Below, piece by piece: positions 8,179-56,354 of a stretch of 64,000 nucleotides of DNA (its first letter is position 1; every line of letters begins with the position of its first letter). The notes below the pieces were generated by a model that saw nothing but the letters and a program-made list of their open reading frames with translations, was not told where the DNA came from and ran no database searches. The stretch is from positions 1-64,000 of the forward strand of contig CAMARW010000010.1 in the NCBI GenBank assembly GCA_945860865.1, in the 5' to 3' direction. A program made the translations under genes and the position numbers. The stretch comes from Chitinophaga pinensis (lineage in GTDB: Bacteria > Bacteroidota > Bacteroidia > UKL13-3).

Positions 8179-8200
8179 CCAGATTTTTCTTCACAATTGC

Positions 8201-8228
8201 TTAACCCAAACTTAACATTTTACTATTG
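8201..8228 (+). promoter_or_regulatory. Possible PhoB-like tandem repeat and -7 box (weak)
   Basis: TTAACCC at 8201 and TTAACAT at 8212 are two heptamers 11 bp apart, with a poorer TTCACAA at 8190. This is the same phasing as the stronger arrays at 18399, 23700 and 26790. TACTATTG at 8221-8228 fits the TAnnATTG -7 box seen there, but the spacing to the last heptamer is 9 nt instead of 15. The box lies only 3 nt before the GTG used as start, so either the start is further downstream (TTG at 8267) or the -7 box is another one. Confidence 0.35.
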
Positions 8229-8230
8229 TT

Positions 8231-9133
8231 GTGGAGGCATATTCGTATAATAATAATTGCGAAACTTTGCCAAAACGTAAAATTGATTTACTGGTTATAT
8301 CAGATGTGCATTTGGGTACATACGGTTGCCAGAGCAAGGCCTTGTTAAATTATCTTAATGCTGTAAAGCCCAAGCGGGTAGTGCTAAACGGCGATATTAT
8401 AGATATGTGGCAATTTAGCAAGCGGTTTTGGCCTAAATCGCACATGAAAATTATTCAGAAAATTACCAAATGGGTTAGTCAGGGTGTTAGGGTAGATTAT
8501 ATTACCGGAAACCACGATGAACTGCTGCGTAAGTTTGCCGGATTTAAAATGGGTTCGTTCCAAATTAGTAATAAGCTAATCTTAGATTTAAACGGACAAA
8601 AAACTTGGATTTTTCATGGGGATATTTTTGATGTTACCATGAAATATTCTAAATGGCTTACGCGCCTTGGCTCACATGGTTACGATTTTCTTATTGTTTT
8701 AAATGCTTTTTGCAATTGGATATTGGCCAAGTTTGGTAAAGAAAAAATATCCTTATCTAAGAACATAAAAAATAGCGTAAAAACAGCTGTAAAATTCATC
8801 AACGATTTTGAATCTATTACCGCCGAAATTGCCATTGCCAACCAATATGATTATGTGCTCTGCGGACATATTCACCATCCAGAAATAAAGCAAATTACTA
8901 CCGATAAAGGTTCGGTTCATTATTTAAACTCGGGAGATTGGATAGAAAATTTATCTGCCTTAGAATACCATGAGGGTAAGTGGAGTCTTTATAAATACAA
9001 CGCAGCAGATTTTGATGATGAAGTAGAAGAAGAACCCAATGATTTGGTGATGATGAGCAATGATCAAATTTTTAATCAGTTGTTTGAAGAGTTTATGGGA
9101 GTGGATGCGGGTAAAAACAAAAGTGCATCATGA
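8231..9133 (+). CDS. PlcP-like metallophosphoesterase (LpxH superfamily)
   Basis: This 300-residue calcineurin-like phosphoesterase shows all metal motifs: SDVHLG (Asp25, His27), NGDIIDMW (Asp55), TGNHDE (Asn94, His95) and a later CGHIHHPE. The GTYGCQSKALLNYL and WPKSHMKII segments are those of the group often annotated as UDP-2,3-diacylglucosamine hydrolase. That group includes PlcP, the phosphate-starvation phospholipase C of Alphaproteobacteria and some marine Bacteroidota. The stop overlaps the start of the glycosyltransferase gene (ATGA), the classical plcP-glycosyltransferase arrangement, so lipid remodelling is more likely than lipid A synthesis. A GTG start is used here; TTG at 8267 is an alternative. 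Family sure, role inferred. Confidence 0.75.
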   Translation: MEAYSYNNNCETLPKRKIDLLVISDVHLGTYGCQSKALLNYLNAVKPKRVVLNGDIIDMWQFSKRFWPKSHMKIIQKITKWVSQGVRVDYITGNHDELLRKFAGFKMGSFQISNKLILDLNGQKTWIFHGDIFDVTMKYSKWLTRLGSHGYDFLIVLNAFCNWILAKFGKEKISLSKNIKNSVKTAVKFINDFESITAEIAIANQYDYVLCGHIHHPEIKQITTDKGSVHYLNSGDWIENLSALEYHEGKWSLYKYNAADFDDEVEEEPNDLVMMSNDQIFNQLFEEFMGVDAGKNKSAS

Positions 9134-10173
9134 AAATATTATACGCCATTCAAGCTACTGGTAACGGGCATATTACAAGGGCCATAGAGATTATTCCGCA
9201 TTTAAAAATGTGGGGTAAAGTAGATATTTTACTCAGTGGAAGTGAGTCTGAAATAGAATTGCCTTTTAAGGTAAAATACAGGTTTAAAGGACTCTCTTTT
9301 GTGTTTGGAAATAATGGCGGCATAGATATTTGGCGAACCTATAAAAAAATGCATTCGCTCAGGTTATGGCGTGAAATTAAATTGCTACCCATTCAAAAAT
9401 ACGATTTAATCATCAGCGATTTTGAACCCATCTCTTGCTGGGCAGCCTTAAAAGCCAAGAAGCCTTGTGTAGGTTTAAGCAACCAAATGGCTACGCTGCA
9501 TCCGCTAGCTCCTAAACCCAAAAAAATAGACTTATTGGGTAAGTGGGTTTTGCAACATTATGCCCCCGTAGATTATTCGTATGGGTTTCATTTTAAAAGT
9601 TTGGATCAGCAAATTTATACACCCATAATAAGAAAAGAAATACGCCAATTAACGGTAGCTAATGCGGGTTATTATGTTGTTTATTTACCTTCCTACTCCG
9701 ATAAGAAAATTATAAAACGATTAGAAAAATTCCCAGAAATTAAATGGGTAGTTTTCTCTAAAAAATCTAGCAAAGCATACCAAGTTAATAATATAAGTAT
9801 TGAGCCTTTGTCTCGACAAAAATTTGCTGAATTTATGGCCGCTTCGGCAGGTGTTATTTGTAATGCAGGATTTGGAACTACCAGCGAAGCTCTGTTTTTG
9901 GGCAAAAAGTTATTGGTTATTCCCATGAAAACCCAGTTTGAGCAGCATTGCAACGCCGCCATGTTAAACCAAATGGGCGTTTCAGTAATAAAAAAATTGG
10001 GTAAAAAGTACGAGGCTACCCTAGCCAATTGGATAGAAAACGAAGAACCCATTGTAGTAGATTACCCAGACCAAACAGCAGATATTATTAAAACCATTGT
10101 AGAAAATCATGGTATACTTCCCAAAGATGCCCCTTTACATTTTTTAAATCAGGGTTTATTTGAGCAACTGTAA
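9130..10173 (+). CDS. GT-B glycosyltransferase (MurG/UGT-like), glycolipid candidate
   Basis: This 347-residue GT-B-fold transferase has an N-terminal YAIQATGNGHITRA, the acceptor-binding loop seen in MurG-like and diacylglycerol glucosyltransferases. The C-terminal NAGFGTTSEALFLGKKLLVIP is the nucleotide-sugar-binding motif. It overlaps the PlcP-like gene by 4 bp and is 5 bp ahead of the GH1 gene, so the three form an operon. If PlcP makes diacylglycerol from phospholipid, this enzyme is the natural candidate to glycosylate it at the inner membrane. It is not the GT4-type Agt of Agrobacterium, so donor and product are open. Confidence 0.75.
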   Translation: MKILYAIQATGNGHITRAIEIIPHLKMWGKVDILLSGSESEIELPFKVKYRFKGLSFVFGNNGGIDIWRTYKKMHSLRLWREIKLLPIQKYDLIISDFEPISCWAALKAKKPCVGLSNQMATLHPLAPKPKKIDLLGKWVLQHYAPVDYSYGFHFKSLDQQIYTPIIRKEIRQLTVANAGYYVVYLPSYSDKKIIKRLEKFPEIKWVVFSKKSSKAYQVNNISIEPLSRQKFAEFMAASAGVICNAGFGTTSEALFLGKKLLVIPMKTQFEQHCNAAMLNQMGVSVIKKLGKKYEATLANWIENEEPIVVDYPDQTADIIKTIVENHGILPKDAPLHFLNQGLFEQL

Positions 10174-18398: not shown

Positions 18399-18465
18399 TT
18401 TACATTTTAGTTATTTTAATTTAACAGCAAGCAAGGAATTTCTTAATAAGCCAAATGAACATTTG
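18399..18465 (+). promoter_or_regulatory. PhoB-like phased heptamer array and -7 box
   Basis: Heptamers repeat every 11 bp: TTTACAT (18399), GTTATTT (18410), TTAACAG (18421), a poor CAAGGAA (18432) and TTAATAA (18443). The -7-like AACATTTG starts at 18458, exactly 15 nt after the last heptamer start. The same 15-nt distance is found at the 23.7-kb and 26.8-kb promoters. Seven-base direct repeats on an 11-bp period are the known layout of Pho boxes, and a PhoX-like gene follows. Confidence 0.5.
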
Positions 18466-18488
18466 TAAACAATTTTAAATTTTTACAA

Positions 18489-20345
18489 ATGAAAAAAACA
18501 TTACTATCAGTATTTGCAGTTGCATCTGCTTTTGCTGCATTTGCTCAAATTCCTTTTCCCGTTACAATAGATACCACTTGGTCGGCATCTACTGTATGGA
18601 TGCCAAAATCGCCACTTAAACTACAAGTTTTGTTTGTAGGAGGAGTAGATACCGTAGAAACAACAGCTACATACGGTAATCCTTCTGGAAGAACCTTGGC
18701 TAAGCAATGGCATGATTTTATTGGCTTTACGCCCGATAAAGAATCTACTACAGATTTAGGTTGGGTTTCTATTAACCATGAAATGATTCAAAAGAATGAT
18801 AAGATTGGTGATGGCGGTGGAATGACCGTTTTTAAACTTCGCAGATTAAAAGGTGATGTGTTAGAAATTGTGCCTCAAACATTAAATGATGGAAGATCTG
18901 GTAAATTCTTTAACGTAGACTTTACAAATATTACTGGCGAAACTGGAATGAACTGCGGTGGTATAGTTGGTCCTGATGGTAGAATCTGGACATCTGAAGA
19001 GTGGATGGCTGTTAGCAATGCTTCTGTAAGCGGTGGTTTGCGTGATACAGCAGATTTTACTATTGGTGTTTCTACTCCTGCTGGTTTTCCTGGTATGAAT
19101 GGCAGAAAATTAAAGAAGTTCCAAAACTGGAATTGGAATGTAGAAATTGATCCAAGACAAGCTAAAGCAGTGCGTAAGCAATACAACTGGGGTAGAGGTG
19201 GCTGGGAAGGCGGCGCTATTTTGCCAGATAACAAAACTGTATTTTTATTTGAAGATGGAACTCCAGGTATCTTAGTAAAGTTTGTGGCAGATAAAGCAGG
19301 TGATTTTACTACAGGTGTTACTTCTGTTTACAAACATGATGCACCAACCAAATGGGTAACTATTGAAAATGAATTAGATTCTTTTGTAAACATACGTTCT
19401 ATTGCTATGAACAGAGGAGCAACCATGTTTACACGTTTAGAGTGGGGTGCTTATTGCAAAGCCAATGGTAAAGTTTATATTACCGAAACTGGTAACGATA
19501 ACCCAGGAAATGCATTTAGAGCTAAAGGTGCAGTTGCTCCTCATTTAATTGTTGCCTACAAAAATCGTTACAAAGAAATTAACAATGCAGATTTCCCTAA
19601 TTCTGATGCAGCAGCTTCTGATTCTATCAGAAACGGTGCTTTCAAAGATTTCTACGGCCGTGTATTAGAATTAGATTTAGTTAGCAACGAAGTTAAAACT
19701 TATATTGAAGGTGGTCCATACAGTGGTTCGGCTACTTCTAAGCCAGTTAACCAATACCCTAATATTCATTTCTCAAACCCTGATGGTTTGAATTTTATGA
19801 CTGTAGGTAACAAAACATACATGATTATTCAAGAAGATTTAAATGGTAGAAATTGGGGAAGAATGCCTGCAGAATACCAAGGTAGCAACCAAACTATCTG
19901 TGAATCATATTTATTAGACATGTCTGTTCCTAACCCTACTTTCGCAAATTTAGTTAGGTTTGCAGCTTGTGCTCCAGGAGCTGAAATTACAGGTGCTATT
20001 GCTTTAGATAGCAAAACCATGTTGGTAAATTCTCAACATCCTGCTTCAACTAACACTTTTCCTTACAATAATTCTTTAACTTATGCTATCAGTGGCTGGG
20101 ATGGATTACCAACTGCTTTATCAGATATTAAAAAAGCGGGTACGCCAACTTTCTCTGTGTATCCTAACCCAGTAGCTCGTGAGTTAAATTTAGACAAAGT
20201 TATGGATGTTGCTATTTATGATATGACTGGTAAGCGTATTAGTGTTCACCGCGATGTTAAAACTGTTGATGTAACAGGATTAAATAGTGGTGTTTATATT
20301 ATCATGAACGAACAAGGTGAGTCTTTGAAGTTTATTGTTGAATAA
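18489..20345 (+). CDS. PhoX-like alkaline phosphatase (DUF839) with T9SS sorting domain
   Basis: This is a 618-residue exported protein with a signal peptide ending AFAAFAQ near residue 20. The body fits the PhoX/DUF839 propeller family of calcium/iron-dependent phosphatases: GWVSINHEM, a GRIWTSEEW turn, NWNWNVEIDP and GGWEGGAILPDNKTVFLFEDG. The last ~70 residues (FSVYPNPVARELNL...LNSGVYII) are a T9SS sorting domain, so it should act at or outside the cell surface, freeing phosphate from organic esters. A phased PhoB-like array precedes it, and a strong terminator with a TTCG loop follows. Metal ligands were not assigned one by one, so family membership is likely rather than certain. Confidence 0.72.
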   Translation: MKKTLLSVFAVASAFAAFAQIPFPVTIDTTWSASTVWMPKSPLKLQVLFVGGVDTVETTATYGNPSGRTLAKQWHDFIGFTPDKESTTDLGWVSINHEMIQKNDKIGDGGGMTVFKLRRLKGDVLEIVPQTLNDGRSGKFFNVDFTNITGETGMNCGGIVGPDGRIWTSEEWMAVSNASVSGGLRDTADFTIGVSTPAGFPGMNGRKLKKFQNWNWNVEIDPRQAKAVRKQYNWGRGGWEGGAILPDNKTVFLFEDGTPGILVKFVADKAGDFTTGVTSVYKHDAPTKWVTIENELDSFVNIRSIAMNRGATMFTRLEWGAYCKANGKVYITETGNDNPGNAFRAKGAVAPHLIVAYKNRYKEINNADFPNSDAAASDSIRNGAFKDFYGRVLELDLVSNEVKTYIEGGPYSGSATSKPVNQYPNIHFSNPDGLNFMTVGNKTYMIIQEDLNGRNWGRMPAEYQGSNQTICESYLLDMSVPNPTFANLVRFAACAPGAEITGAIALDSKTMLVNSQHPASTNTFPYNNSLTYAISGWDGLPTALSDIKKAGTPTFSVYPNPVARELNLDKVMDVAIYDMTGKRISVHRDVKTVDVTGLNSGVYIIMNEQGESLKFIVE

Positions 20346-20379
20346 ATTTTTTTAATAATTCTGAAATTAAGTCTTATTC

Positions 20380-20408
20380 CGGGGTTGGTTCGCCAACCCC
20401 GTTTTTTT
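20380..20408 (+). terminator. Strong intrinsic terminator after PhoX-like gene
   Basis: CGGGGTTGG and CCAACCCCG form a 9-bp GC-rich stem around a TTCG tetraloop, followed by seven T. It separates the PhoX-like gene from the cytochrome genes, whose own start lies 11 bp further on. Confidence 0.9.
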
Positions 20409-20418
20409 GTTATATAAT

Positions 20419-22347
20419 ATGAAAAAATTATCTGTGTTATTGGTGGTGCTATGTGTTATTGTTTCTTGGTCGTTGCTTAGCAGTCATTCTCATAATGATA
20501 CCCTTTCGCAATTATTGGCAAATCAAAAATTAAATAATTTCAAGAAAGAACTTAATCAATTTAACCAGCTAGTAATTAATTGGAAGGAAGCTAAAGTATC
20601 TGAAAAGTCCATTCAATTGGCCTATAAGCAACTTCGTAATTCCTATAAACAAATAGAATTTTTACTCGAATTTACAGATCCTGCCTTAGTAAAGGATAAT
20701 TTAAATGGGGCTCCGCTCCCTCATCTAGATAAAACTGCACCTAGTTTATTGGTTTTAAATCCGGTTGGTTTGCAAGTTTTGGATGAATTATTGCAAGAAC
20801 CAAAGGATTCTATTACCATCCAAGAAATTAAGTTTCAGTCGGATTTGCTAAATCAAACCATGCAATCTTATCAATGGCAAACCAAGATATACGACCGATA
20901 TATTTTTGAGGGTGCGTTTATTGCCCTCATTAGGTTGTTTAATCTTGGACTTACTGGTTTTGATACGCCTGGATCACTTCATGGTATTGAAGATAGTAAA
21001 TCAGTTTTATTAAGCCTAAAAGAATTCTTAGTTTTATACCAATCTGCCCTAGATGCTAGAAAACCTGGTTTTCATGCAGAATTAATGCAGATGTTATCAT
21101 CTGCCATTCAAGATTTAAATAAATCAAAAGGGTTTAATGAATTTAATCGCTATGCTTTTCTAGTTAATCATTTAAATCCTTTAATCAACCAATTTAAAAG
21201 CGCCAAGCATCTCTTGCAAATTGAAACTATGGAAGAGGTAAACCCCAATCAAAGTGCATTAAATTATGAAGCCAATGGTTTATTCGACCCTAATTTACTT
21301 CAAAAAGATTTTTACCTAAAATTGCCAATTAAATACAGGAATGAAAAAACCATCGCTTTGGGCAAATTACTTTTCTATGACCCTATTTTATCTGCAAACA
21401 ATGCCAGAAGCTGTGGCAGCTGCCACAATCCAACACTTGCTTTTACAGATGGATTACAAAAAAGCAGGGCGTTTAAATCGGATACATTTATTCAAAGAAA
21501 TGCCCCAAGTCTTATTAATTCGGTGTATGCCGAACGTTTCTTTTATGATTTAAGAGCGGGCACCTTAGAAGACCAAACAGAACATGTAATATTTAGCAAA
21601 GAAGAATTTAATACCTCTTACTTTGATATTTTCAATAAATTAAATGGTAGCAAAACCTATGCAGAAATGTTTAAGCAAACTTTTCCTGATTTTAATCCTG
21701 CCTCTTTAAACAGAACCACTTTATCATACGCTTTGGCTGCTTATGTGGGGTCAATTACTTCTTTTAGTTCACCTTTTGATTTGGCTGTGCAGCAAGGGGC
21801 AAAGGCACAATTGCCAAATCAAGTTGTAAATGGTTTCAATCTATTTATGGGTAAAGCTGCTTGTGGTACTTGTCATTTTGCCCCTGTTTTTAATGGAACC
21901 ACGCCACCTTTCTTTTTTGAATCTGAGTCGGAGGTTCTGGGCGTACCTGAAGACGCCTCTGCGAAAGTTTGGAAATTAGATGGCGACAAGGGTAGAGCAG
22001 ACGGTAGGTACAAAGAAAATATTCCATTCTATGAATATTCCTTTAAAACAGTTACTGTTCGCAATACTGCCTTAACCAAACCCTATATGCATAATGGAAG
22101 TTTTTTAACATTAGAGGATGTTGTAGATTTTTATAATAATGGGGGAGGTGCCGGCAAAGGTCTTTCTGTTCCCCATCAAACATTGGCTAGCGATAAACTT
22201 AATTTATCGAAAAATGAAATTGCTGATCTCTTAGCTTTTATGAATAGTTTAAATGATAGCAACTACCATTTTGAAATGCCAGTTACCCTACCTGCAATCG
22301 AGTTATATCCAAATTTAAACAATAGAATCATTGGCGGTTCGTACTAA
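20419..22347 (+). CDS. Di-haem cytochrome c peroxidase / MauG-family protein
   Basis: This 642-residue periplasmic protein begins with a signal-anchor-like run (LSVLLVVLCVIVSWSLL). Residues ~20-285 form a helical N-terminal domain I do not recognise. Residues ~300-625 form a CcpA/MauG domain with two haem-c sites: SCGSCHNP near residue 332 and ACGTCHFAP near 480. The FTDGL, APSLINSVYAERFFYDLRA and PYMHNGSFLTLEDVVDFYNNGGG landmarks of di-haem peroxidases are present. It would reduce peroxide or oxidise an unknown partner. ATG at 20419 is chosen; the next gene overlaps its 3' end by 17 bp, implying co-translation. Confidence 0.85.
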   Translation: MKKLSVLLVVLCVIVSWSLLSSHSHNDTLSQLLANQKLNNFKKELNQFNQLVINWKEAKVSEKSIQLAYKQLRNSYKQIEFLLEFTDPALVKDNLNGAPLPHLDKTAPSLLVLNPVGLQVLDELLQEPKDSITIQEIKFQSDLLNQTMQSYQWQTKIYDRYIFEGAFIALIRLFNLGLTGFDTPGSLHGIEDSKSVLLSLKEFLVLYQSALDARKPGFHAELMQMLSSAIQDLNKSKGFNEFNRYAFLVNHLNPLINQFKSAKHLLQIETMEEVNPNQSALNYEANGLFDPNLLQKDFYLKLPIKYRNEKTIALGKLLFYDPILSANNARSCGSCHNPTLAFTDGLQKSRAFKSDTFIQRNAPSLINSVYAERFFYDLRAGTLEDQTEHVIFSKEEFNTSYFDIFNKLNGSKTYAEMFKQTFPDFNPASLNRTTLSYALAAYVGSITSFSSPFDLAVQQGAKAQLPNQVVNGFNLFMGKAACGTCHFAPVFNGTTPPFFFESESEVLGVPEDASAKVWKLDGDKGRADGRYKENIPFYEYSFKTVTVRNTALTKPYMHNGSFLTLEDVVDFYNNGGGAGKGLSVPHQTLASDKLNLSKNEIADLLAFMNSLNDSNYHFEMPVTLPAIELYPNLNNRIIGGSY

Positions 22348-23668
22348 ATTATTTTCCTTTTTCTCCCTTTTTTTTATTTGTGCTATTTTTGAATTGGCAT
22401 GGGCTCAGCCTGTTTCTTTTAATAAAGAGGTTTTACCTGTTATTTTAAAAAAGTGTGCCACCTGCCATTATCAAAATGGTTATGCGCCATTTGCGTTAAC
22501 CAATTATGAAGAGGTAAAAAGACACACCAAAGAAATGTCTATTGTAATACCTAATAATAGCATGCCACCTTGGAAAGCAGATGCCAGTTTTCGAGATTTT
22601 GCAGCAAATCGTTCTTTAAGTAATGCAGAAAAGGAGTTAATTTTAAGTTGGATAAAATCGGGAGCTACCCAGGATGTTTCAGATTCAAAAATTACACTTT
22701 CCAAGCCCTTTAAGCCAGAAAAGCCAGATATCTTGCTTAAAATGAATAAGCCATATTTGCTTAAAGCATCTAACTTAAATACATACATCTCTTATAAAAT
22801 CCCTTTTGAATTAGATTCTAACTATGCCATTTCGGGTATTCAATTTATTCCAGGATCTAAAATTGCTGTGCACCATGCCTCTTATCAAATATATGAGGTA
22901 GCAGATGATGTAGATGTGTTTGCTGGTCCAGATTACTTTACGTATAAAGAAGACTCTCTTAACCGGGTGGATGACACCAGAGATTTTAATTATTTTAATA
23001 TGGTCGGTGAATCGGGTGTATTGCCCAAAGAGCGCTATCATGGGGGTTGGTTACCCGGAACGGAAAAAATTGTATTTCCGCCTGGCATAGGTTTTAATCT
23101 CCCTAAAAGAGGTGTATTAATCATAAGAAGTCTGCATTATTCACCTAGTCCGATAGATGTGTATGATCAATCTGCTCTCGGTTTTTATGTATCTAAGATG
23201 CCCATTAGCAGGCCTGTAGGTTTTGCAGCTTTTCAGCCCAGAAATCCTAGCCCAGGCTTTAGTTGGACCATAGCGGCAGATACGATATACCGTGCCCACC
23301 TCAATGTAAAATTTAACAATGATGTAAGCTTATTGTTTATTAATCCGCATATGCACCTGATTGGAAAAACCTTTAAAGCGATGGCTATTACGCCCAATGC
23401 AGATACCATACCTTTGGTGCATATCGCTGATTGGGATTTTAATTGGCAAGATTTTTATCGGTATAAGAAGATGGTAAAAATCCCTACTGGTTCAGTGCTG
23501 CATGCTGAAGCTACTTATGATAATACCAATCAGAATCCTTTTAACCCTAATTATCCGGCCAAATCTATGCCTTTTGAAACAGGTATGAATGAGTCGAATG
23601 AAATGATGCGACTTGTTATTTTGTACTTACCTTATTTAATTGGCGATGAGAATATTAGTTTAGAGTAG
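22331..23668 (+). CDS. Cytochrome c / Cu type II monooxygenase-like fusion protein
   Basis: This 445-residue exported protein has a TTG start (no ATG gives the signal peptide FFSLFFICAIFELAWAQ). Residues ~30-130 carry one haem-c site, KCATCHYQ, followed by the NNSMPPWKAD segment usual in this family. Residues ~140-440 resemble copper type II ascorbate-dependent monooxygenases: HHASYQIYE, HMHLIGKTFKAM and YDNTNQNPFNPN supply the His and Met-type ligands. Its 5' end overlaps the di-haem peroxidase gene by 17 bp, so the two are co-translated and probably exchange electrons in the periplasm. The substrate is unknown. Confidence 0.75.
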   Translation: MAVRTKLFSFFSLFFICAIFELAWAQPVSFNKEVLPVILKKCATCHYQNGYAPFALTNYEEVKRHTKEMSIVIPNNSMPPWKADASFRDFAANRSLSNAEKELILSWIKSGATQDVSDSKITLSKPFKPEKPDILLKMNKPYLLKASNLNTYISYKIPFELDSNYAISGIQFIPGSKIAVHHASYQIYEVADDVDVFAGPDYFTYKEDSLNRVDDTRDFNYFNMVGESGVLPKERYHGGWLPGTEKIVFPPGIGFNLPKRGVLIIRSLHYSPSPIDVYDQSALGFYVSKMPISRPVGFAAFQPRNPSPGFSWTIAADTIYRAHLNVKFNNDVSLLFINPHMHLIGKTFKAMAITPNADTIPLVHIADWDFNWQDFYRYKKMVKIPTGSVLHAEATYDNTNQNPFNPNYPAKSMPFETGMNESNEMMRLVILYLPYLIGDENISLE

Positions 23669-23699
23669 ATTTATTTTATAGGTTAATTTTTTCATGCAT

Positions 23700-23777
23700 T
23701 TAACAATAAATTAACATTGCCTTAACAATACACTAACAGCTTGTTAACTTTAGGGTAATTTAATGGCGTTAAAATTG
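23700..23777 (+). promoter_or_regulatory. PhoB-like array of six phased heptamers and -7 box
   Basis: Six heptamers lie on a strict 11-bp period: TTAACAA 23700, TTAACAT 23711, TTAACAA 23722, CTAACAG 23733, TTAACTT 23744 and GTAATTT 23755. A -7 box TAAAATTG starts at 23770, 15 nt after the last heptamer start, and the ATG of the TonB receptor follows at 23794. This is the clearest of the arrays and is visible by eye as five TAAC words in a row. Confidence 0.65.
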
Positions 23778-23793
23778 TTTAAATATTTTAAGC

Positions 23794-26706
23794 ATGAAAA
23801 TTAGATTTTTTACTCTGTTAATCACCTTATTACAAGTTTCTACGATTCTTACAGCCGCCACCACTGGTAAAATTGGCGGAAAAATAATTGACAGAAAAAC
23901 GGGTGAAGAGTTGATAGGTGTGACTGTTTTGGTAGAAGGAACCCCAATGGGAGCATCTACTGATTTTGAAGGCAAGTTTATGATTGCTAATTTAAAGCCT
24001 GGTTTTTACACACTTATTGCCTCTTATGTTTCCTACACCAAAAAATCCATTAAAAATATTGAAGTAAAAGCAGGTGAGGTAACCAATGTGGTTATTGCAT
24101 TAGATGCTGTTTCTAATGATTTATCAGAAGTAGTGGTTCAGGGTACATTGAAAAGAGAGAATGCTAGCGCTTTGTTAATTCAACAAAAGAAAAGTGTTTC
24201 AATTTCAGATGGTATCTCTGCTGATATGATAAAGAAGACGCCAGATGCTACCACGGGTGATGTTATGAAACGTGTGAGTGGTACTTCTATCCAAGACAAT
24301 AAATTTGCCGTAATTCGCGGATTAAATGATAGGTATAATACGGCTTACATAAATGGAGCACCGCTTCCTAGTTCTGAAAGTGATAGAAAAGCTTTTAGTT
24401 TTGATATCTTTCCTTCAAATATGTTGGCTAACATGGTAATTACCAAAACAGCTTCTCCTGATTTACCTGGTGATTTTGCTGGTGGATTGATAACCATCAA
24501 CACGCGTGATATTCCAGAAGAAAAATTTGTATCTGTTTCATCAGGAACGAGTTTTCATAGTATTACTACTGGTAAGGCTGGCGTTGGGTCTAACACCAGC
24601 AGTACAGATTTTTTAGGATTTGATGATGGCAAACGCCTTATTCCAGAAAATATTCCAAGCAGAGGAGAATACAACTCTTCGCCAAATAAAATTGAAAACT
24701 CTAAAGCATTTGATGAGGATTGGACATTATTAAGACCAACTAATTTACCTCTTAATTACTCGTTAAACCTTGCTGGTGGAAATAGTTATAAAGTAGGGAA
24801 AAATGATGAGTTTGGCTTTATTGTTTCAGGTTCTTATAGCAACACAAGAAGGAATTTGTTTGTAGAAAGAAACCAATTCAATAGGCCCATGGATGGTAAC
24901 GATAATCAAATTCAAAGGAGCTACCAAGATACCATCACTAGAGATGAAGTATTATCTGGTTTAATGGCTAATTTTGGTTATAAAATTGGAAAAAATCATA
25001 AGATTTCATTCAAAAATGCATTAACCCTAAATGCAGAAAACCTCACTACTTTAAGAGCTGGTGCTGATGATTATACCTCAGAACAGGTTCCACTTGTTAG
25101 AAATGTTTATTTTAATTACAGTCAAAGTAGGCTATTAACCAATCAATTGATTGGAGAGCATTATTTGCCAACATCTAAAATTAAGATAAAGTGGGTGCTT
25201 AATAACAATAGTATAAACAGAACGATACCAGATTTTAAAAGATTTTCTACCTCGGCAAATCTTATTTCGCAAGAAGATGGCTACACGCCTTATGCCGCTC
25301 AATTTAATAATACAATCAATTTTACGCAACTAGGAAGGTTCTACTCAAGTTTAGATGAAAACATAAGAAGCGCTGGTGTAGATGTGCAAAAACCTCTTGC
25401 TGAGTTGAGTAATAAAAAGATTAAAACAGATGTTAAAGTGGGTGGATTTTTTCAAAAAAGAAGCAGAGAATTTAAAGCCCGTGCATTTGTACCAGTTTTA
25501 AAGAAAGGTGGTATAGATGGCATCAGATTTAGAGAGGGGATGATGGATACCATGTTTCGTGCTGATGCCTACGGTGAAGATTTTTACTGGGAAGAGGATT
25601 TTCGCGCACAAGATGTATACAGTGCCAAATCTAACCTTGCTGCAGCTTATTTAATGCTCGACCAAAAAATTGCCTCTAGATTTAGATTTGTATATGGTGT
25701 AAGGTTTGAGAGCTACAATCAAAATCTTAGTTCTTTTGAACTGAACTCTAGTCCGCCTGTTCCTTTAAATGTGGATACTGTTTTTAATGATTTCTTGCCC
25801 TCGTTAAACTTCACTTATGAGCTAACATCAAAAACTAACTTAAGGTTTTCTGCCTCAAGAACCCTTGCTAGGCCAGAGTTTAGAGAGTTAGCTCCATTCT
25901 CTTTTTATGATTTTAACATCAATACAGTTGTTACTGGTAACACTAGTTTAACAAGAACAAAAATTAATAATTTTGATCTTCGATATGAGTTTTACCCTGG
26001 TGAGGGGCAAATTTTGTCGGCCTCAGCTTTTTATAAAACATTTCGTAACCCTATAGAAATGGTTTATGAATTTAGAGGAAGCGACACCTATTTAAGCTAT
26101 TCATCTAATGCCAACGCTACAAATTATGGAATTGAGTTTGAGATCCGTAAAAACTTTGACTTTTTAGATAATATATTCAAAACTACTTGGATAAAAGACT
26201 TCAGTTTTACAGCTAACTACGCATATATAATTTCTGAGGTTAAATTTGATGAGAGTGTTTCCTTGAAACAGTTTGGCACAAGACCTCTTCAAGGTCAATC
26301 ACCTTATATTTTAAACACTAGCTTGCAGTACTACAATAATAAATCTGCTTTTGGATTTGCTGTATTTGTAAATAGAATTGGAAGAAGGATTGCTTTTGTG
26401 AGAGAAATTAATGGTTTAATTCCCGATTTATGGGAAAATCCTAGAACAGTTGTTGATATTAGTATATCCAAAAGAATTTGGAAGGGTTTAGAAGCTAAAT
26501 TTGCTGTCAATGATCTTTTAGCTCAAGATTTGGTTTTTTATTGGGATAACAATGAAAATGGAAAGCTAGACAATTTTAATAAACAACAGTTAATTAATGC
26601 AGCACCCGGACCAGGAGAATCTGCTAAACGATTTAGTATGGATAATGATGTGTTCCGTCATAGAATGGGTTATACAATGTCTTTTAGTTTGTCTTATAAA
26701 TTTTAA
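23794..26706 (+). CDS. TonB-dependent receptor with carboxypeptidase-regulatory-like domain
   Basis: This 970-residue outer-membrane transporter has a signal peptide (~1-22) and a CarboxypepD_reg-like Ig domain at ~26-108 (GKIIDRKTGEELIGVTVLVEG...STDFEGKF). A plug domain at ~125-245 (RVSGTSIQDNKFAVIRGLNDRYNTAYINGAPLP) precedes a 22-strand-type barrel to the terminal Phe (MSFSLSYKF). No SusD partner follows; the next gene is the beta-helix T9SS protein, under a matching promoter. The strong phased PhoB-like array suggests induction by phosphate starvation, so a phosphate-containing ligand is the best guess. Ligand specificity cannot be read from sequence. Confidence 0.88.
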   Translation: MKIRFFTLLITLLQVSTILTAATTGKIGGKIIDRKTGEELIGVTVLVEGTPMGASTDFEGKFMIANLKPGFYTLIASYVSYTKKSIKNIEVKAGEVTNVVIALDAVSNDLSEVVVQGTLKRENASALLIQQKKSVSISDGISADMIKKTPDATTGDVMKRVSGTSIQDNKFAVIRGLNDRYNTAYINGAPLPSSESDRKAFSFDIFPSNMLANMVITKTASPDLPGDFAGGLITINTRDIPEEKFVSVSSGTSFHSITTGKAGVGSNTSSTDFLGFDDGKRLIPENIPSRGEYNSSPNKIENSKAFDEDWTLLRPTNLPLNYSLNLAGGNSYKVGKNDEFGFIVSGSYSNTRRNLFVERNQFNRPMDGNDNQIQRSYQDTITRDEVLSGLMANFGYKIGKNHKISFKNALTLNAENLTTLRAGADDYTSEQVPLVRNVYFNYSQSRLLTNQLIGEHYLPTSKIKIKWVLNNNSINRTIPDFKRFSTSANLISQEDGYTPYAAQFNNTINFTQLGRFYSSLDENIRSAGVDVQKPLAELSNKKIKTDVKVGGFFQKRSREFKARAFVPVLKKGGIDGIRFREGMMDTMFRADAYGEDFYWEEDFRAQDVYSAKSNLAAAYLMLDQKIASRFRFVYGVRFESYNQNLSSFELNSSPPVPLNVDTVFNDFLPSLNFTYELTSKTNLRFSASRTLARPEFRELAPFSFYDFNINTVVTGNTSLTRTKINNFDLRYEFYPGEGQILSASAFYKTFRNPIEMVYEFRGSDTYLSYSSNANATNYGIEFEIRKNFDFLDNIFKTTWIKDFSFTANYAYIISEVKFDESVSLKQFGTRPLQGQSPYILNTSLQYYNNKSAFGFAVFVNRIGRRIAFVREINGLIPDLWENPRTVVDISISKRIWKGLEAKFAVNDLLAQDLVFYWDNNENGKLDNFNKQQLINAAPGPGESAKRFSMDNDVFRHRMGYTMSFSLSYKF

Positions 26707-26728
26707 CAATTTAGCAAATTATTTCACT

Positions 26729-26760
26729 AAGGTTCAGCTTTTTATGGCTGAACCTTTTTT
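26729..26760 (+). terminator. Intrinsic terminator after TonB receptor
   Basis: AAGGTTCAGC (26729-26738) pairs with GCTGAACCTT (26747-26756) around an 8-nt loop, and the T-run continues to 26760. The next gene therefore needs its own promoter, which is seen at 26790-26845. Confidence 0.9.
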
Positions 26761-26789
26761 GTTTATTTGGGATTGAAAATCCAACCTAC

Positions 26790-26845
26790 TTAACATTAAA
26801 GTAATCTAAAATTAACGTTGATGCAACAGCGCAATTTTATTATTG
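26790..26845 (+). promoter_or_regulatory. PhoB-like phased heptamer array and -7 box
   Basis: TTAACAT 26790, GTAATCT 26801, TTAACGT 26812 and GCAACAG 26823 lie on an 11-bp period. TATTATTG at 26838-26845 is the -7 box, again 15 nt after the last heptamer start, as at 23700-23777. The ATG is at 26867, giving a leader of about 15-20 nt. Confidence 0.6.
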
Positions 26846-26866: not shown

Positions 26867-29800
26867 ATGAAAAAAATTAATTTATTAATTATTTTGTTGT
26901 TTGTAGTCTTTGTATCAACTGCTCAAAAAGCAAGAACGATATCAGGCAACATAACAACGAACACCACATTTTTTAACGACACAATTTATACCTTAGAAGG
27001 TTATGTTTTCGTTAAAAATAATGCTACTTTGAGCATACAGCCAGGAACTATTATTAAGGGTAAATTTGGCACTAAAGCAACCTTAATTATTACCCGTAAC
27101 GGTATGATCAATGCGAACGGAACAGCTACTCGCCCTATTGTATTTACATCTGAGAAGCCTGCTACCCAACGTAACAAAGGAGATTGGGGTGGTATTGTAA
27201 TTTTAGGTAAAGCTACTATCAACCGACCTACAGATTGTTCTACTTGCCCAGGTGCTGCCGTTGCTGCTGCCGAAGCGGGTATTCAAAATGCAATTGAAGG
27301 TGACGTAGACAATGCAGCAGGTGATGCATTATATGGTGGAACAGATGACAATCACAATGCAGGTACTTTGCGTTTTGTGCGTATAGAATATGCTGGAACG
27401 GTAATTACTCCAGGTAACGAAATCAATGGTTTAACAATGGGTGGAATTGGAAAGCAAACTAAAATTGAATACGTTCAAGTTTCGTTTGCAGATGATGATG
27501 CTTTTGAATGGTTTGGTGGTAATGCCGATGCTAAATACTTAGTTTCATACAGAAACGTTGACGATGATTTAGATGTTGATTTTGGTTTTTCTGGAAAAGT
27601 TCAATATGCTATCGTTTTACGTGATTCATTATTATATGATATCGGTGCTGGTCCAACTACCAATGGTTTTGAGTCAGATAATGATGGAGCAGGTTCAGAA
27701 GCAAAACCTTTTACTGATCCAACTTTCTCAAATATTACTGTATTAGGTCCTTTAGCTAACGGTACTCCTTTATCATACAGCAATTCATTCCAAAATGGTG
27801 CACGTATCAGAAGAAATTCATCAACTAGTATCTTTAACTCTATCTTCATGGGTTGGAACGATGCTTTATTTATTGATGGCGCGCGTACTTTAAACAAGCA
27901 CCAAACTGATACCATGATGTACAAGAATAATTTATTGGCTGGTAATATCCGTGCGGTAAATGCTTCTACTTCGGGTGGTTCAAACCCTAATTTAACCCGT
28001 AGCAAAATATTTGCTAATGCAAATGATTCTATAGCTTCAGCTGCAGGTGTTTTAGCAGATCCATTTAATTATAACAATCCTAACTTTGCTCCAGCTGTTG
28101 GTTCACCTGCATTAACTGGTGCTTCTTTTACAGGTGGTAGAATTTCTGATGCTTTCTTTACGCCAGGTACCTTTAGAGGTGCAATGGGTTCAGAAAATTG
28201 GACTTCTTGCTGGTGTAACTTTACACCAAACCAAACCAATTATGATATAGCTCCGCTTAACTTATTGCCTTTAACTTATGATGCTGGAAGAGATTCAACT
28301 ATTTGTTCTGGTCGTTCTTTAGTTATTGGTCAAAATTTAACTGGTCCTTACAAAGCTACATGGACACCTTCTGCTGGTTTAAGTTCTACCACTGCTGCTC
28401 GTCCAACGGCTAACCCAACAGTTACAACTAAATATTTTGTAACAGTTAGAGATTCAATCACAGGTTGTTCATTAACAGATAGTATTACAATAACTGTTAA
28501 CCCAACTCCTGCTGCAAACTTTACCTCTGCGGCTGGAACGGGTGCTGGTGTAGTTAATTTCACCAATACTTCTACCAACGCTACTACTTTTAACTGGAAC
28601 TTTGGCGATGGTAATACTTCAACAACTCAAAATCCAAGTAATACTTACATTGCTAATGGTACTTATACAGTTAGCTTAACTGCTATTTCTGGTGCATGTA
28701 ACAATGCTACCAGCAGACAAATTAATGTAACGGGTATTGCTTCTCCAGTTAGAGCTTTCTCTGGAGATATTACAAGTAATACTACATTTTTCTCAGATTC
28801 AATTTATTTAATTAATGGTTATGTTTATGTTAAAAACAATGCAGTTTTAACTATTCAACCAGGTACAATCATTAAAGGTAACGCCAACAAAGCAACTTTA
28901 ATTATTACCCGTAATGGTAGAATTGAAGCGAATGGAACTAAAAACCAGCCTATTGTATTTACTTCATCTAAGCCAGCTGGCCAACGTAACAAAGGAGATT
29001 GGGGTGGTATTGTAATTTTAGGTAAAGCTACTATCAACCGTCCTACAGATTGCTCTACTTGCCCAGGTGCTGCCGTTGCTGCCGCTGAAGCGGGTATTCA
29101 AAATGCCGTAGAAGGCGACGTTGATAATACTGCTGGTGATGCACTATATGGTGGAACAGATAACAATCACAATGCAGGTACATTGCGTTTTGTGCGTATT
29201 GAATATGCTGGAACGGTAATTACTCCAGGTAACGAAATTAATGGTTTAACCATGGGTGGAATTGGAAAACAAACTAAAATTGAATACGTTCAAGTTTCGT
29301 TTGCAGATGATGATGCTTTTGAATGGTTTGGTGGTAATGCAGATGCTAAGTACTTAGTTTCATTCAGAAACGTAGACGACGATTTAGATGTTGATTTTGG
29401 TTTCTCTGGAAAAGTACAACATGCTATCGTTTTACGCGATTCACTGTTATATGATATCGGTGCTGGTCCAACTACCAATGGTTTTGAGTCAGACAATGAT
29501 GGAACAGGTTCAGAAGCTAAGCCTTTTACTGATCCAACTTTCTCAAATATCACTGTATTAGGTCCTTTAGCTAACGGTACTCCTTTATCATACAGCAATT
29601 CATTCCAAAATGGTGCACGTATCAGAAGAAATTCATCAACTAGTATCTTTAACTCTATCTTCATGGGTTGGAACGATGCTTTATTTATTGATGGTGCGCG
29701 TACTTTAAGTAAGCACCAAAATGATACCATGATGTACAAGAATAATTTATTAGCAGGTAATATCCGTGCGGTAAATGCTTCTACTTCGGGTGGTTCAAAC

Positions 29801-30874
29801 CCTAATTTAACCCGTAGCAAAATATTTGCTAATGCAAATGATTCTATTGGTTCAGCCGCTGGTGTTTTAGCAGATCCATTTAACTATAACAATCCTAACT
29901 TTGCTCCAGCTGTTGGTTCACCTGCATTAACTGGTGCTTCGTTTACAGGTGCTAGAATTTCTGATCCATTCTTTACTCCAACTTCATACCGCGGTGCATT
30001 AAGTCCTAATGCAGATAGTAACTGGACAAATTGCTGGTGTAATTTTGATCCTCAGAATGCTAATTACACTTCATCTCCAATAAATAACCCAGCTGCAACT
30101 GCTAATTTTACAGCGCCTGCAACTGCAAGTTCTTTGAAGGTTGATTTTGTAAACAGTTCTTCTAATGCAACAAGCTACTTCTGGGATTTTGGTGTGGCTG
30201 CAAGCACTACAGATACTTCTTCTGCTATGAACCCAAGCTTTACCTTCCCTGCAAATGGCAAGTACACAGTTGTATTAACTGCTAGAAGCAAGTGTGGAAA
30301 TAGTTCTAAGTCTTTTGAAATTACTATTAATGATGTGAGCATTTTACCTGTAGTAGATTTTACTTTTGTACAAGATACTGCCAATGGTTCACGTTCTATT
30401 TCATTTACTAATACAACTGTAGAAAAAGGTTTAACCATTAGCTATTCTTGGAAATTTGGTGATGGTGCTACTGCAGCAACTAAAAATGCTACACATAACT
30501 ATACTGCTAATGGTAGTTATACAGTAACATTATTTGCTTCTCATATTCATGGATTAGATTCAATCTCTAAAACGGTTAATGTTATTGCTACTTCTATGGA
30601 TGAAAAAGCACCATTAATTAATAGCTTCTTGGTTTATCCTAATCCAACTAGAGAGAATGTGTTAGTTGATTTCTTCTTGAATAAGTCTGAAAATATTAGC
30701 ATCAGCGTATTAGATTTAACAGGTAAAGAAATTATTCAAATTCCTGCTTCTTATTTAACTGCCGGAAAACATACTACACCAATTATTACCAATAACTTGT
30801 CTGAAGGTATGTATATGGTTAAAATTAGCAGTTTAGAAACAACCTTAACTACTAGGTTAGTGATTATTAAATAA
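26867..30874 (+). CDS. Giant T9SS-secreted beta-helix protein with duplicated module and PKD domains
   Basis: This 1,335-residue exported protein starts MKKINLLIILLF and has a signal peptide ending STAQK. The order is beta-helix-like module 1 (~20-455), a linker and PKD domain (~535-625), module 2 (~628-1070, homologous to module 1), two PKD domains (~1075-1245) and a T9SS sorting domain (~1255-1335, LVYPNPTRENVLV). The modules carry GDWGGIVILGKA, CSTCPG (possible disulfide), DDDAFEWFGG and an Asp-rich DDDLDVDFGFSG, suggesting calcium binding. Members of this family are often mis-called transporters; no catalytic site is evident. Its promoter matches that of the TonB receptor upstream, so it may deliver a ligand to it. 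ATG at 26867 is preferred over TTG at 26843. Confidence 0.82.
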   Translation: MKKINLLIILLFVVFVSTAQKARTISGNITTNTTFFNDTIYTLEGYVFVKNNATLSIQPGTIIKGKFGTKATLIITRNGMINANGTATRPIVFTSEKPATQRNKGDWGGIVILGKATINRPTDCSTCPGAAVAAAEAGIQNAIEGDVDNAAGDALYGGTDDNHNAGTLRFVRIEYAGTVITPGNEINGLTMGGIGKQTKIEYVQVSFADDDAFEWFGGNADAKYLVSYRNVDDDLDVDFGFSGKVQYAIVLRDSLLYDIGAGPTTNGFESDNDGAGSEAKPFTDPTFSNITVLGPLANGTPLSYSNSFQNGARIRRNSSTSIFNSIFMGWNDALFIDGARTLNKHQTDTMMYKNNLLAGNIRAVNASTSGGSNPNLTRSKIFANANDSIASAAGVLADPFNYNNPNFAPAVGSPALTGASFTGGRISDAFFTPGTFRGAMGSENWTSCWCNFTPNQTNYDIAPLNLLPLTYDAGRDSTICSGRSLVIGQNLTGPYKATWTPSAGLSSTTAARPTANPTVTTKYFVTVRDSITGCSLTDSITITVNPTPAANFTSAAGTGAGVVNFTNTSTNATTFNWNFGDGNTSTTQNPSNTYIANGTYTVSLTAISGACNNATSRQINVTGIASPVRAFSGDITSNTTFFSDSIYLINGYVYVKNNAVLTIQPGTIIKGNANKATLIITRNGRIEANGTKNQPIVFTSSKPAGQRNKGDWGGIVILGKATINRPTDCSTCPGAAVAAAEAGIQNAVEGDVDNTAGDALYGGTDNNHNAGTLRFVRIEYAGTVITPGNEINGLTMGGIGKQTKIEYVQVSFADDDAFEWFGGNADAKYLVSFRNVDDDLDVDFGFSGKVQHAIVLRDSLLYDIGAGPTTNGFESDNDGTGSEAKPFTDPTFSNITVLGPLANGTPLSYSNSFQNGARIRRNSSTSIFNSIFMGWNDALFIDGARTLSKHQNDTMMYKNNLLAGNIRAVNASTSGGSNPNLTRSKIFANANDSIGSAAGVLADPFNYNNPNFAPAVGSPALTGASFTGARISDPFFTPTSYRGALSPNADSNWTNCWCNFDPQNANYTSSPINNPAATANFTAPATASSLKVDFVNSSSNATSYFWDFGVAASTTDTSSAMNPSFTFPANGKYTVVLTARSKCGNSSKSFEITINDVSILPVVDFTFVQDTANGSRSISFTNTTVEKGLTISYSWKFGDGATAATKNATHNYTANGSYTVTLFASHIHGLDSISKTVNVIATSMDEKAPLINSFLVYPNPTRENVLVDFFLNKSENISISVLDLTGKEIIQIPASYLTAGKHTTPIITNNLSEGMYMVKISSLETTLTTRLVIIK
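26930..30084 (+). repeat. 605-codon direct duplication inside the beta-helix gene
   Basis: Module 1 (about 26930-28257) recurs as module 2 (about 28745-30084) at an offset of 1,815 bp. The central part, about 27171-28140 against 28986-29955, is nearly identical at DNA level, including third codon positions, while both flanks are clearly diverged. The mix points to a duplication whose core has been homogenised by gene conversion or recently recopied. Confidence 0.9.
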
Positions 30875-31077: not shown

Positions 31078-31908
31078 ATGAAAAAAACATTACTTACTTT
31101 TATAATTGGTTTAGTGGCACTCGTATTTTTTGAATCATTTGATTTGAAAATCCTAGCCAAACAACAAGACGGCAGTAATCCGGGATTTACCGGTTCTCCT
31201 GGAGACAGTTTAAAAAATTGCACTGCTTGTCATGGTGGTTCTGCCATTACCAAGGCCAATTGGATTAAATCTAGCATACCTGCAGAAGGTTTTGAACCGG
31301 GCGTAAAATATACCATTCGGGCAGTCAATACATCTGGCGGACATACCCGTTTTGGATTCTCTGTTTCGCCACAAGCCATTGATGGAAAATTATTGGGTAC
31401 TTTGGTTCTTACAGACTCTTTGCGCACCCAATTAAACGGAAATGGTAAATACATTACCTACAAAACTCAGGGCGTATTTGGGGTAGATTCTGCCGTTTGG
31501 TTGTTTGATTGGATTGCACCTATAGATGTTAATGAGGTTGTATTTTATGGTGCATTTAATTCTAACCACGAGGGGCATAAAGGGGGAGATTTAACCACCT
31601 TAAGCACTTTAAAAGTGTTTAAGAAAGGCTTTACATCAATCAAAGAAAATGCTTTCGGCTCGAGCCTAAACATTTTCCCCAATCCGGCTCAGCAAACCTT
31701 GCACGTTTCTTTTAATACATCGCAAAATGAGCAAAGTGTAATAAAATTATATAACCTTCAAGGTGAGTGTGTATGGCTTGGGTCAAACCACTTTGATAAG
31801 CAAGTAACTGAAACCATTGATGTTTCTGGAATGGCTAAAGGAATTTACTTATTGCATGTGCAAAATGGCGCTAATTTAAGCGTAGAGAAGGTTTTGCTAA
31901 CAAACTAA
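31078..31908 (+). CDS. Choice-of-anchor V/Reeler-like protein with haem-c motif and T9SS domain
   Basis: This is a 276-residue exported protein with an N-terminal hydrophobic run (TFIIGLVALVFFESF). Residues ~38-62 hold GSPGDSLKNCTACHGG, the CxxCH haem-c signature found in choice-of-anchor V domains. A Reeler-like beta-sandwich follows to ~185 (KYTIRAVNTSGGHTRFGFSVS). The last ~75 residues (LNIFPNPAQQTLHVSF...MAKGIYLLHV) are a T9SS sorting domain. It is likely a surface-displayed cytochrome-like protein; its redox partner is unknown. It is preceded by a terminator and so is transcribed alone. Confidence 0.8.
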   Translation: MKKTLLTFIIGLVALVFFESFDLKILAKQQDGSNPGFTGSPGDSLKNCTACHGGSAITKANWIKSSIPAEGFEPGVKYTIRAVNTSGGHTRFGFSVSPQAIDGKLLGTLVLTDSLRTQLNGNGKYITYKTQGVFGVDSAVWLFDWIAPIDVNEVVFYGAFNSNHEGHKGGDLTTLSTLKVFKKGFTSIKENAFGSSLNIFPNPAQQTLHVSFNTSQNEQSVIKLYNLQGECVWLGSNHFDKQVTETIDVSGMAKGIYLLHVQNGANLSVEKVLLTN

Positions 31909-46469: not shown

Positions 46470-46934
46470 TTAATCTGGATAAATAGCACTAACCAATTTC
46501 CAATATAGTTTTTTGAAATCCATTTGAGGTTTCAACCCAAGTCCGCTAACAGTAACCAAAATGCCATTATAGATGAAATATCTATAGTTTAAGCTGCTAT
46601 TTAGAATGTAATCTAGGTCGAGGTCAATTAGAACCAATTGATTGCCTAATTGCTCATATTTGGACAAATATTCTTTTTTATCAATTCCTGAATTGTAATC
46701 GTCTAAGGCATTTTGGGCTAAATCTACTAGTCTGTAATATTCTATCAAGGTTTCTAGTCTAGCATAAAGATTATAAAAGTGCATCTCCTCTATATTCCAT
46801 AATGGCGGCAAATCAAATTCTAGGAAAAGTGCCTTGTAGGTATTTAACCAGGGTGTAATTTTATCTTCATTTAAAACGTGGTCTATTGGGAATTCGCTTA
46901 TAGCACTTGCATATATATCTTTTTTAAAAGTCAT
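46470..46934 (-). CDS. Uncharacterised protein
   Basis: I do not recognise this 154-residue cytosolic protein. It is helical in its first 110 residues, rich in Tyr and Leu, with no signal peptide. The C-terminal MDFKKLYWKLVSAIYPD resembles the end of small adaptor-like proteins. ATG at 46934 is the only start. It is the last gene of a minus-strand run from 49.5 to 46.5 kb next to tRNA-Glu, whose members are mostly of unknown function. Confidence 0.55.
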   Translation of the reverse strand: MTFKKDIYASAISEFPIDHVLNEDKITPWLNTYKALFLEFDLPPLWNIEEMHFYNLYARLETLIEYYRLVDLAQNALDDYNSGIDKKEYLSKYEQLGNQLVLIDLDLDYILNSSLNYRYFIYNGILVTVSGLGLKPQMDFKKLYWKLVSAIYPD

Positions 46935-46998
46935 ATTTGGTTAATTTACTTTACCTGAAAGGTATTGGAGGTTTGGATAGATTATGAATGAATCCAAA

Positions 46999-47352
46999 TT
47001 ATAATTTTATTCCGCATTCTTTACATAGAATAGGATGATTTCTTAATACATTCAAACTACCACAATGTTTGCAGGGATTTGGTGATTTAAAATCATCAGC
47101 ATGCTCGGCAGAATGCGTTTTATAGCAGGTTTGGCATTGGTACTCGTATTTGTAAATGCTCAATAATTTACCATTTTCATCTCTTTTGGAAAAATGAATA
47201 TTATTGAAAAACGTATTATTTGTTTGGCATTGGTGGCATTTCAATTCAAAATTGCAAGGGAAATAATAGTCAGAAAAGAATATTCCCGAACCAATTCTAG
47301 CAAGCTCATTTTTCTTCAAGTATGGGTCAATAAGTATGTTAACTTTTTCCAT
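46999..47352 (-). CDS. Zinc-ribbon protein of unknown function
   Basis: This 117-residue protein has four CxxC pairs: CHQC, CQTC, CKHC and CKEC. They make two zinc ribbons, one inserted in a beta-rich body and one at the C-terminus (PCKHCGSLNVLRNHPILCKECGIKL). Zinc binding is inferred from this spacing; no enzyme motif is present. It begins 3 bp after the lipoprotein gene at 47356-47730 and is likely co-transcribed. Another Cys-rich protein, at 49964-50332, has a similar design. Confidence 0.65.
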   Translation of the reverse strand: MEKVNILIDPYLKKNELARIGSGIFFSDYYFPCNFELKCHQCQTNNTFFNNIHFSKRDENGKLLSIYKYEYQCQTCYKTHSAEHADDFKSPNPCKHCGSLNVLRNHPILCKECGIKL

Positions 47353-47355
47353 GGT

Positions 47356-47730
47356 TTAATCAGTAAACTCTATTAAATAGCCTGAATAGGTAACTGTTTT
47401 TTGAATGTAAAATGGGAAAATAAAAGTCATGTGTTCATCAACTGTAGGGTAAATGTATGCTTTTGCACCTCCATTTAATTTATTTTTTGTTACCATTGAG
47501 GTTCTGGCTTTTTCAACTAGTGCTTTAGCTGAGATTCCCCCAATACCAAAAATATATTTGGCAGTTGCAGTGCCGCTAACTTTATCAATTACTTTATAGT
47601 TTTTTTGGGAAAGCACAACACTGGTTTGACTTGCATTTATATTGCTAGTTAATCCATCATGAAATCCACAACTATTTAATAATAATAATAGAGGTATAAT
47701 GAATAGGCTTTTTTTTGTTAGTTTTTTCAT
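47356..47730 (-). CDS. DUF6567-type lipoprotein
   Basis: This 124-residue lipoprotein has signal KKSLFIIPLLLLLNSC, with lipobox LNSC and GFHDG after it. The body NASQTSVVLSQKNYKVIDKVSGTATAKYIFGIGG and the end PFYIQKTVTYSGYLIEF match a small Bacteroidota-specific family I know as DUF6567, of unknown function, probably periplasmic or outer membrane. The gene lies within the minus-strand unknown-gene run, 3 bp ahead of the zinc-ribbon gene. Confidence 0.75.
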   Translation of the reverse strand: MKKLTKKSLFIIPLLLLLNSCGFHDGLTSNINASQTSVVLSQKNYKVIDKVSGTATAKYIFGIGGISAKALVEKARTSMVTKNKLNGGAKAYIYPTVDEHMTFIFPFYIQKTVTYSGYLIEFTD

Positions 47731-47752
47731 AGGTTTTTTATTTTTTAAGTGA

Positions 47753-48208
47753 TTAATATCGGTCTGAAGACTTATCTATTTTTTTCAATACGGGCCGTTT
47801 TTGTTCATAAAAGTCCTGTTGATTATTTTGACTAGTGGTTTTTTTAATCGATTTATTTGAAGCTACATTTAAACTCTTTTGTTCCGTATACGGTTCGTTG
47901 CTTTTTACGTATTTTGGTGGTTCGCTAATAGTGACCTTTGTCTCATTTATTTTTTCTATAACTATTTCACTTTTGGTTTCATTTTCTGAAATGCTTGAAT
48001 CCAATGGTGCATTTTCCTCCCAGCTAATTATTGGATTTATATTTGATATCCAAATCATTGCAACTATTGGTGAAAGAAAACCAAATATTCCCCATCTTGA
48101 GCTATTTCTATTTAGGATAACAGCCTTTTCCGAACAATAGTAAGCACCATAAATTCTCAAAACTAAATTAACTAGAATAAAAATTGGCGATGCTCCATCT
48201 TGCTGCAT
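47753..48208 (-). CDS. Small membrane protein with charged C-terminal tail
   Basis: This 151-residue protein has two hydrophobic segments (about 8-24 and 38-58, the second GIFGFLSPIVAMIWIS) followed by ~90 hydrophilic residues rich in Ser, Lys and Glu, probably disordered. I do not recognise it. ATG at 48208 lies 12 bp after the stop of the J-domain-like gene, so they are probably co-transcribed. Two segments plus a disordered cytosolic tail suggests a membrane-tethered partner for another protein. Confidence 0.55.
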   Translation of the reverse strand: MQQDGASPIFILVNLVLRIYGAYYCSEKAVILNRNSSRWGIFGFLSPIVAMIWISNINPIISWEENAPLDSSISENETKSEIVIEKINETKVTISEPPKYVKSNEPYTEQKSLNVASNKSIKKTTSQNNQQDFYEQKRPVLKKIDKSSDRY

Positions 48209-48220
48209 AATTGATAATAA

Positions 48221-48619: not shown

Positions 48620-48629
48620 TATATATAAC

Positions 48630-49037: not shown

Positions 49038-49099
49038 TTTAATTGAAATTGCGATATCAAATACTCCTGTTATTAAATATTATCATAAAATTTAAACTT

Positions 49100-56340: not shown

Positions 56341-56354
56341 TTGAGCACTTCATT

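Follow-up and report, generated by a model that had tools for sequence, protein, structure and literature searches.

The window analysed here, a 64,000-nt stretch of a Chitinophaga pinensis genome, contains phased arrays of heptamers with the consensus TTAACAT, the units running head-to-tail, 11 bp apart, immediately before phosphate genes. These arrays are very probably Pho boxes, the predicted operators of a PhoB-like response regulator encoded on contig C8 of the same genome. Three of them, all on the forward strand, had been described in an earlier note as starting at 18399, 23700 and 26790 with an 11-bp period and six heptamers at 23700, and a base-by-base reading agrees. The array upstream of the phoX-like operon (18399–18465) has five slots, three of them good heptamers (TTTACAT GTTATTT TTAACAG CAAGGAA TTAATAA), followed by a -7-like box, AACATTTG, at 18458; it is the weakest of the three, since two of its five slots, GTTATTT and CAAGGAA, barely fit. 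The one before a TonB-dependent receptor gene (23700–23777) reads TTAACAA TTAACAT TTAACAA CTAACAG TTAACTT GTAATTT, with the box TAAAATTG at 23770, and the one before the gene for a beta-helix T9SS protein (26790–26845) has four heptamers, TTAACAT GTAATCT TTAACGT GCAACAG, and the box TATTATTG at 26838. The fixed step that the note had proposed is identical in all three on direct reading: 15 nt from the start of the last heptamer to the start of the box, a gap of 8 nt.

The boxes are of the type TAnnTTTG, which resembles the Bacteroidota -7 promoter element. The E. coli Pho box sits where the -35 element would be, and the position of the arrays here suggests that they take the place of a -35/-33 element. 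Both structural features of a Pho box are thus present, namely 7-bp direct repeats on an 11-bp period and a fixed position directly upstream of the -10/-7 element. PhoB is known to bind 7-bp units in 11-bp direct repeats in tandem, head-to-tail (PMC4415409).

Several search models were used. Training of the first (R1) included the window's own sites, so that its genome ranking is partly circular; a second model (R2) and a pst-only matrix were therefore made from 10 pst promoters of other genomes, none from the window. When both strands of the window were scored with the pst-only matrix, the best four distinct sites were at 26838, 8238, 23770 and 18458 (23.9, 23.5, 23.0 and 13.9 bits), which are the beta-helix, plcP, receptor and phoX promoters, in that order. 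In simulated sequence of the same dinucleotide content, each strand yielded 0.5 sites per Mb with scores of at least 20 bits and 2.5 per Mb with scores of at least 14. Almost no weight can be given to the explanation that the phasing arose by chance or from base composition in AT-rich promoters and was picked out by eye. TTAAC does come cheaply in an AT-rich genome, and the bare pattern TTAAC-N6-TTAAC was dropped as uninformative, with 14 matches against 33 for the reversed control. However, the explanation is refuted by the first ranks of the sites with a matrix that had never seen the window, and by a grid of periods (9–13) and steps (10–20) over the phylum-wide loci described below, which has a single peak, at 11 and 15. 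The arrays are also conserved in orthologues, and the one before the receptor recurs in Hymenobacter, at 55–66% GC.

All three promoters of the earlier note stand, but the set was incomplete. A fourth array of operator type, TTCACAA TTAACCC TTAACAT CTATTGT (8190–8245, forward strand), with the box CATATTCG at 8238, the position ranked by the pst-trained matrix, precedes a gene for a PlcP-like metallophosphoesterase (PF12850; 8267–9133, forward strand, from a putative TTG start at 8267). About a dozen relatives have the same arrangement upstream of their plcP-like orthologues. The next gene (9130–10173, forward strand) encodes a glycosyltransferase by its profile matches (PF13528/PF04101), probably the lipid-remodelling partner of the PlcP-like protein; together they are the pair expected for replacing phospholipids by glycolipids.

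The rest of the genome was surveyed by pattern and model searches and in targeted stretches. The best R2 match (E 0.0033) is the promoter of the PhoB-like regulator gene on contig C8, where an array with its box lies 23 nt before the gene, an arrangement that points to autoregulation of phoB. Ranks three, four and six fall in the window, at the plcP, receptor and beta-helix promoters; the degenerate phoX array was not recovered by R2 in this genome. A match at C1:647696 was discarded as weak, the nearest ORF being 191 nt downstream and unlike a phosphate gene. A further phased array lies outside the window, between a divergent DUF47-pit pair and an outer-membrane porin gene (contig C3; L105:1475-1672), with about eight 11-bp slots, most of them fitting TTAAC, and weak boxes. 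The genome scan suggested in the earlier note, for matches upstream of pstS/pstC, phoB or other phosphatases, has given the PhoB-like promoter and the divergent pit/porin promoter in this genome. Four OmpR-type regulators were found in the genome, and the contig C8 protein is the best PhoB match among them. Its best-scoring models are TIGR02154 and NF053854, with scores below the curated equivalog cut-offs of both (228.9 vs 296.2 and 213.8 vs 270 bits), and it is for this reason called PhoB-like. There is no pst operon in this genome and no pstS above the family cut-off, which is why the pst promoters of relatives were used; of its three PBP_like_2 matches, two are LysR-type regulators and the third adjoins ExbB/TonB-type genes.

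Conservation was followed across 64 genomes of the family. Eight of these have a true pst operon, and a matrix built from phoX promoters and the window sites found an array with the same phase and step at every one. It precedes pstS in some and, in others, the porin gene that heads the operon, the genes then running porin-pstS-pstC-pstA-pstB-phoU. Sites found by R2 over the 64 genomes lie, among others, before receptor orthologues and PhoB-like genes, before a pit gene, and before the genes for OprP-like porins and OlsF-like acyltransferases. The proposal of a PhoB-like regulon is well borne out by this company of pst operons, regulator, transporter, porin and acyltransferase genes. The OlsF-type genes (L166:6897-8645, L159, L161) encode bifunctional acyltransferases of ornithine lipid synthesis (PF19576 + PF13444) and are preceded by the same array, which by its presence would tie lipid remodelling to the phosphate switch.

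A different regulator of the OmpR/PhoB family, responding to metal, envelope or redox stress and having phosphate genes as just part of its targets, could in principle bind the arrays. It is known in general that other OmpR-type regulators read direct repeats of similar period, this genome has three more regulators of the type, and the authors of a study of Riemerella anatipestifer PhoP note that its motif resembles that of ArcA (PMC9603813). Such a regulator is nonetheless improbable here: every pst operon has an array, as does the PhoB-like gene, arrays are nearly absent elsewhere, and the three remaining regulators are better fitted by metal (CzcR/CopR), RprY-type or RpaB/YycF-type models than by PhoB.

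The phoX-like gene is present in 13 of the 64 genomes. Slots and 15-nt step are kept in all 12 of its readable promoters, the window's included, though the intervening sequence has changed, and throughout the orthologues arrays, phase and step are retained despite diverged surrounding DNA. The order of the operon is kept in relatives with enough flanking DNA. The closest relatives retain the receptor and surface protein genes downstream of it, each with its own array; in genomes lacking phoX at this place these two are still adjacent, each usually with an array.

In the window, the first gene after the 18399 array (18489–20345, forward strand) encodes a PhoX-like phosphatase with a T9SS C-terminal sorting domain. 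The PhoX fold is supported by Foldseek, in which a structural model of modest quality (pLDDT 60) had P. fluorescens PhoX as its best hits (E 1.5e-12, prob 1.00). A phmmer comparison with PhoX from the PDB is weak (6.8e-05) and a PF05787 match is absent even at E 10; the protein is called PhoX-like because this sequence-family match was not obtained. It is followed on the same strand by a gene for a MauG/di-haem cytochrome c peroxidase-like protein (20407–22347) and, overlapping its end, one for a protein with a Cu type II monooxygenase C-terminal-like domain and a weak haem-binding match (22331–23668). Such redox genes lie inside the phoX-like operon in several genera (20407–23668 here; L050:3783-7728, L049, L045), with a Rieske protein (PF00355) also in that of L050 and ORFs of similar size at that place in L045 and L049. 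Cofactor maturation and oxidation of organic phosphorus are both possibilities for an extracytoplasmic redox set beside a phosphatase.

The TonB-dependent receptor (23794–26706, forward strand) has CarboxypepD_reg, Plug and beta-barrel domains, its closest NCBIfam model being TIGR01782, below the cut-off of that model. The surface protein (26867–30874, forward strand; 1335 residues) consists of two beta-helix modules, PKD domains and a T9SS sorting tail. It is an internal duplication of a module of ~450 residues, predicted to be a beta-helix (pLDDT 74, pTM 0.81); many homologues from other orders are of single-module size (about 450–560 aa). No enzyme class is claimed for it, since a fold search with the beta-helix gave fold-class matches and none below E 1e-3. 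After it, here and in one relative (L170), comes a gene for a 276-aa protein (31078–31908) that has no array of its own and whose T9SS tail is the sole recognised part.

An alignment of the beta-helix, run against 84,980 species genomes, yielded 80 loci, among them Hymenobacter, Pedobacter, Mucilaginibacter, Chryseobacterium, Chitinophaga, Ignavibacteria and Kapaibacterium relatives, with the receptor gene adjoining the surface protein gene in most. These loci were scored with a matrix whose training set comprised phoX promoters and the window's receptor and beta-helix sites but none of the 80 loci, a few of which belong to the window's own family. A site score of at least 18 was found for 72% of 67 receptor genes and 42% of the surface-protein genes. 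For 744 other ORFs of these loci the figure is 1.1%, so that the motif is much rarer before unrelated genes; equal frequency there was what the earlier note had named as counting against its reading.

These distributions suggest, at about even odds, that the Bacteroidota share an ancient and rigid Pho-box grammar, in which TTAACAT recurs every 11 bp and the last unit starts 15 nt before TAnnTTTG. A core target besides pst would then be the TonB-receptor/beta-helix pair, serving surface capture and import of a macromolecule that contains phosphorus, and phoX would be a local addition in some lineages. A lesser but substantial possibility is that the receptor and the surface protein are Pho-regulated for some purpose other than phosphorus uptake, such as attachment or another nutrient. 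This alternative is compatible with the arrays being Pho boxes, because it concerns the role of two members and not the operator. Beta-helix and PKD proteins are, in general, often adhesins or carbohydrate-active, the fold search returned a fold class only, and a phosphatase domain was found in neither protein. Against it, the link of the pair to the phosphate switch holds throughout the phylum, Caulobacter ElpS is reportedly involved in phosphate mobilisation (PMC2996285), and the authors of a study of the Flavobacterium johnsoniae PHO regulon place receptor/FI pairs in phosphate-utilisation loci (PMC8115612).

Of the suggestion that receptor and beta-helix protein are new regulon members with no assigned role, the membership is supported by their Pho-type arrays, but similar receptor/exoprotein pairs have already been linked to phosphate in Flavobacterium and Caulobacter. 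Among the F. johnsoniae proteins that rise when phosphate is depleted are PhoX, MauG, PlcP, TonB receptors and FI/FII exoproteins, the receptors being paired with FI/FII exoproteins and PhoX with MauG (PMC8115612). That regulon shares with the present one PhoX with a MauG-like gene, PlcP, TonB receptors beside the exoproteins, and phoBR; the terms "Pho box" and "motif" are absent from the main text of the paper (PMC8115612). Its PhoX and FI/FII proteins are described as lipoproteins (PMC8115612), whereas the window's PhoX-like and surface proteins carry T9SS tails, and the Cu-type protein belongs to the window's phoX operon, unlike that regulon. In Caulobacter, ElpS (CC0170) is a phosphate-starvation extracellular protein encoded beside the TonB receptor CC0171, the latter reported to be constitutively expressed (PMC2996285). 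The window has the same arrangement of a secreted surface protein beside a TonB receptor, under phosphate control as predicted from the promoter. However, ElpS is a lipoprotein of about 50 kDa exported by a T2SS, while the window protein has a T9SS sorting tail in place of lipoprotein export, two beta-helix modules and PKD domains; it is accordingly not classed as an ElpS, and may be said only to work like one.

As for the operator, the boxes of E. coli PhoB and of B. subtilis and Streptomyces PhoP share the 7-bp conserved units and 11-bp direct repeats. They differ in the unit, CTGTCAT or GTTCACC there and TTAACAT here, and the arrays here, of up to six or more units, are coupled to the Bacteroidota -7 box by a 15-nt step that does not vary. 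In the same phylum, DAP-seq and EMSA with R. anatipestifer PhoP showed binding to a TTTAACA motif and to the regulator's own promoter; the accessible text of that paper stresses virulence and aerotolerance and describes neither an 11-bp array nor a fixed promoter step (PMC9603813). The literature searched, largely limited to non-subscription papers, yielded no definition of a Bacteroidota Pho box that gives both period and promoter step. Already known, then, are Pho boxes and the link of receptor/exoprotein pairs to phosphate starvation in Flavobacterium and Caulobacter; new, as read from sequence, are the promoter grammar and its use throughout the phylum, together with the fourth site and the T9SS-exported double-module surface protein. 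With a base-precise rule, phosphate regulons become readable from unannotated genomes and MAGs across the phylum, and a widespread receptor/surface-protein pair becomes testable as a phosphorus-acquisition system.

A mechanism can be proposed as follows. At low phosphate, the neighbouring PhoR-like kinase would phosphorylate PhoB, dimers of which would bind the heptamers head-to-tail along one face of the helix. The last heptamers would cover the -33 position, and PhoB would hold RNA polymerase there (class II activation), a contact that would demand the rigid 15-nt step. The set regulated in this way would comprise phoBR, pit and the porin, the plcP-glycosyltransferase pair for lipid remodelling, and the operon phoX-mauG-Cu-protein of a surface phosphatase, as well as the genes for the TonB receptor and the beta-helix surface protein. 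In what is the least certain step, the receptor and the surface protein would probably serve to capture, at the cell surface, and then import a macromolecule that contains phosphorus. Elsewhere in the window, short minus-strand ORFs of about 110–155 aa are clustered at 46470–50332 and 55685–56817.
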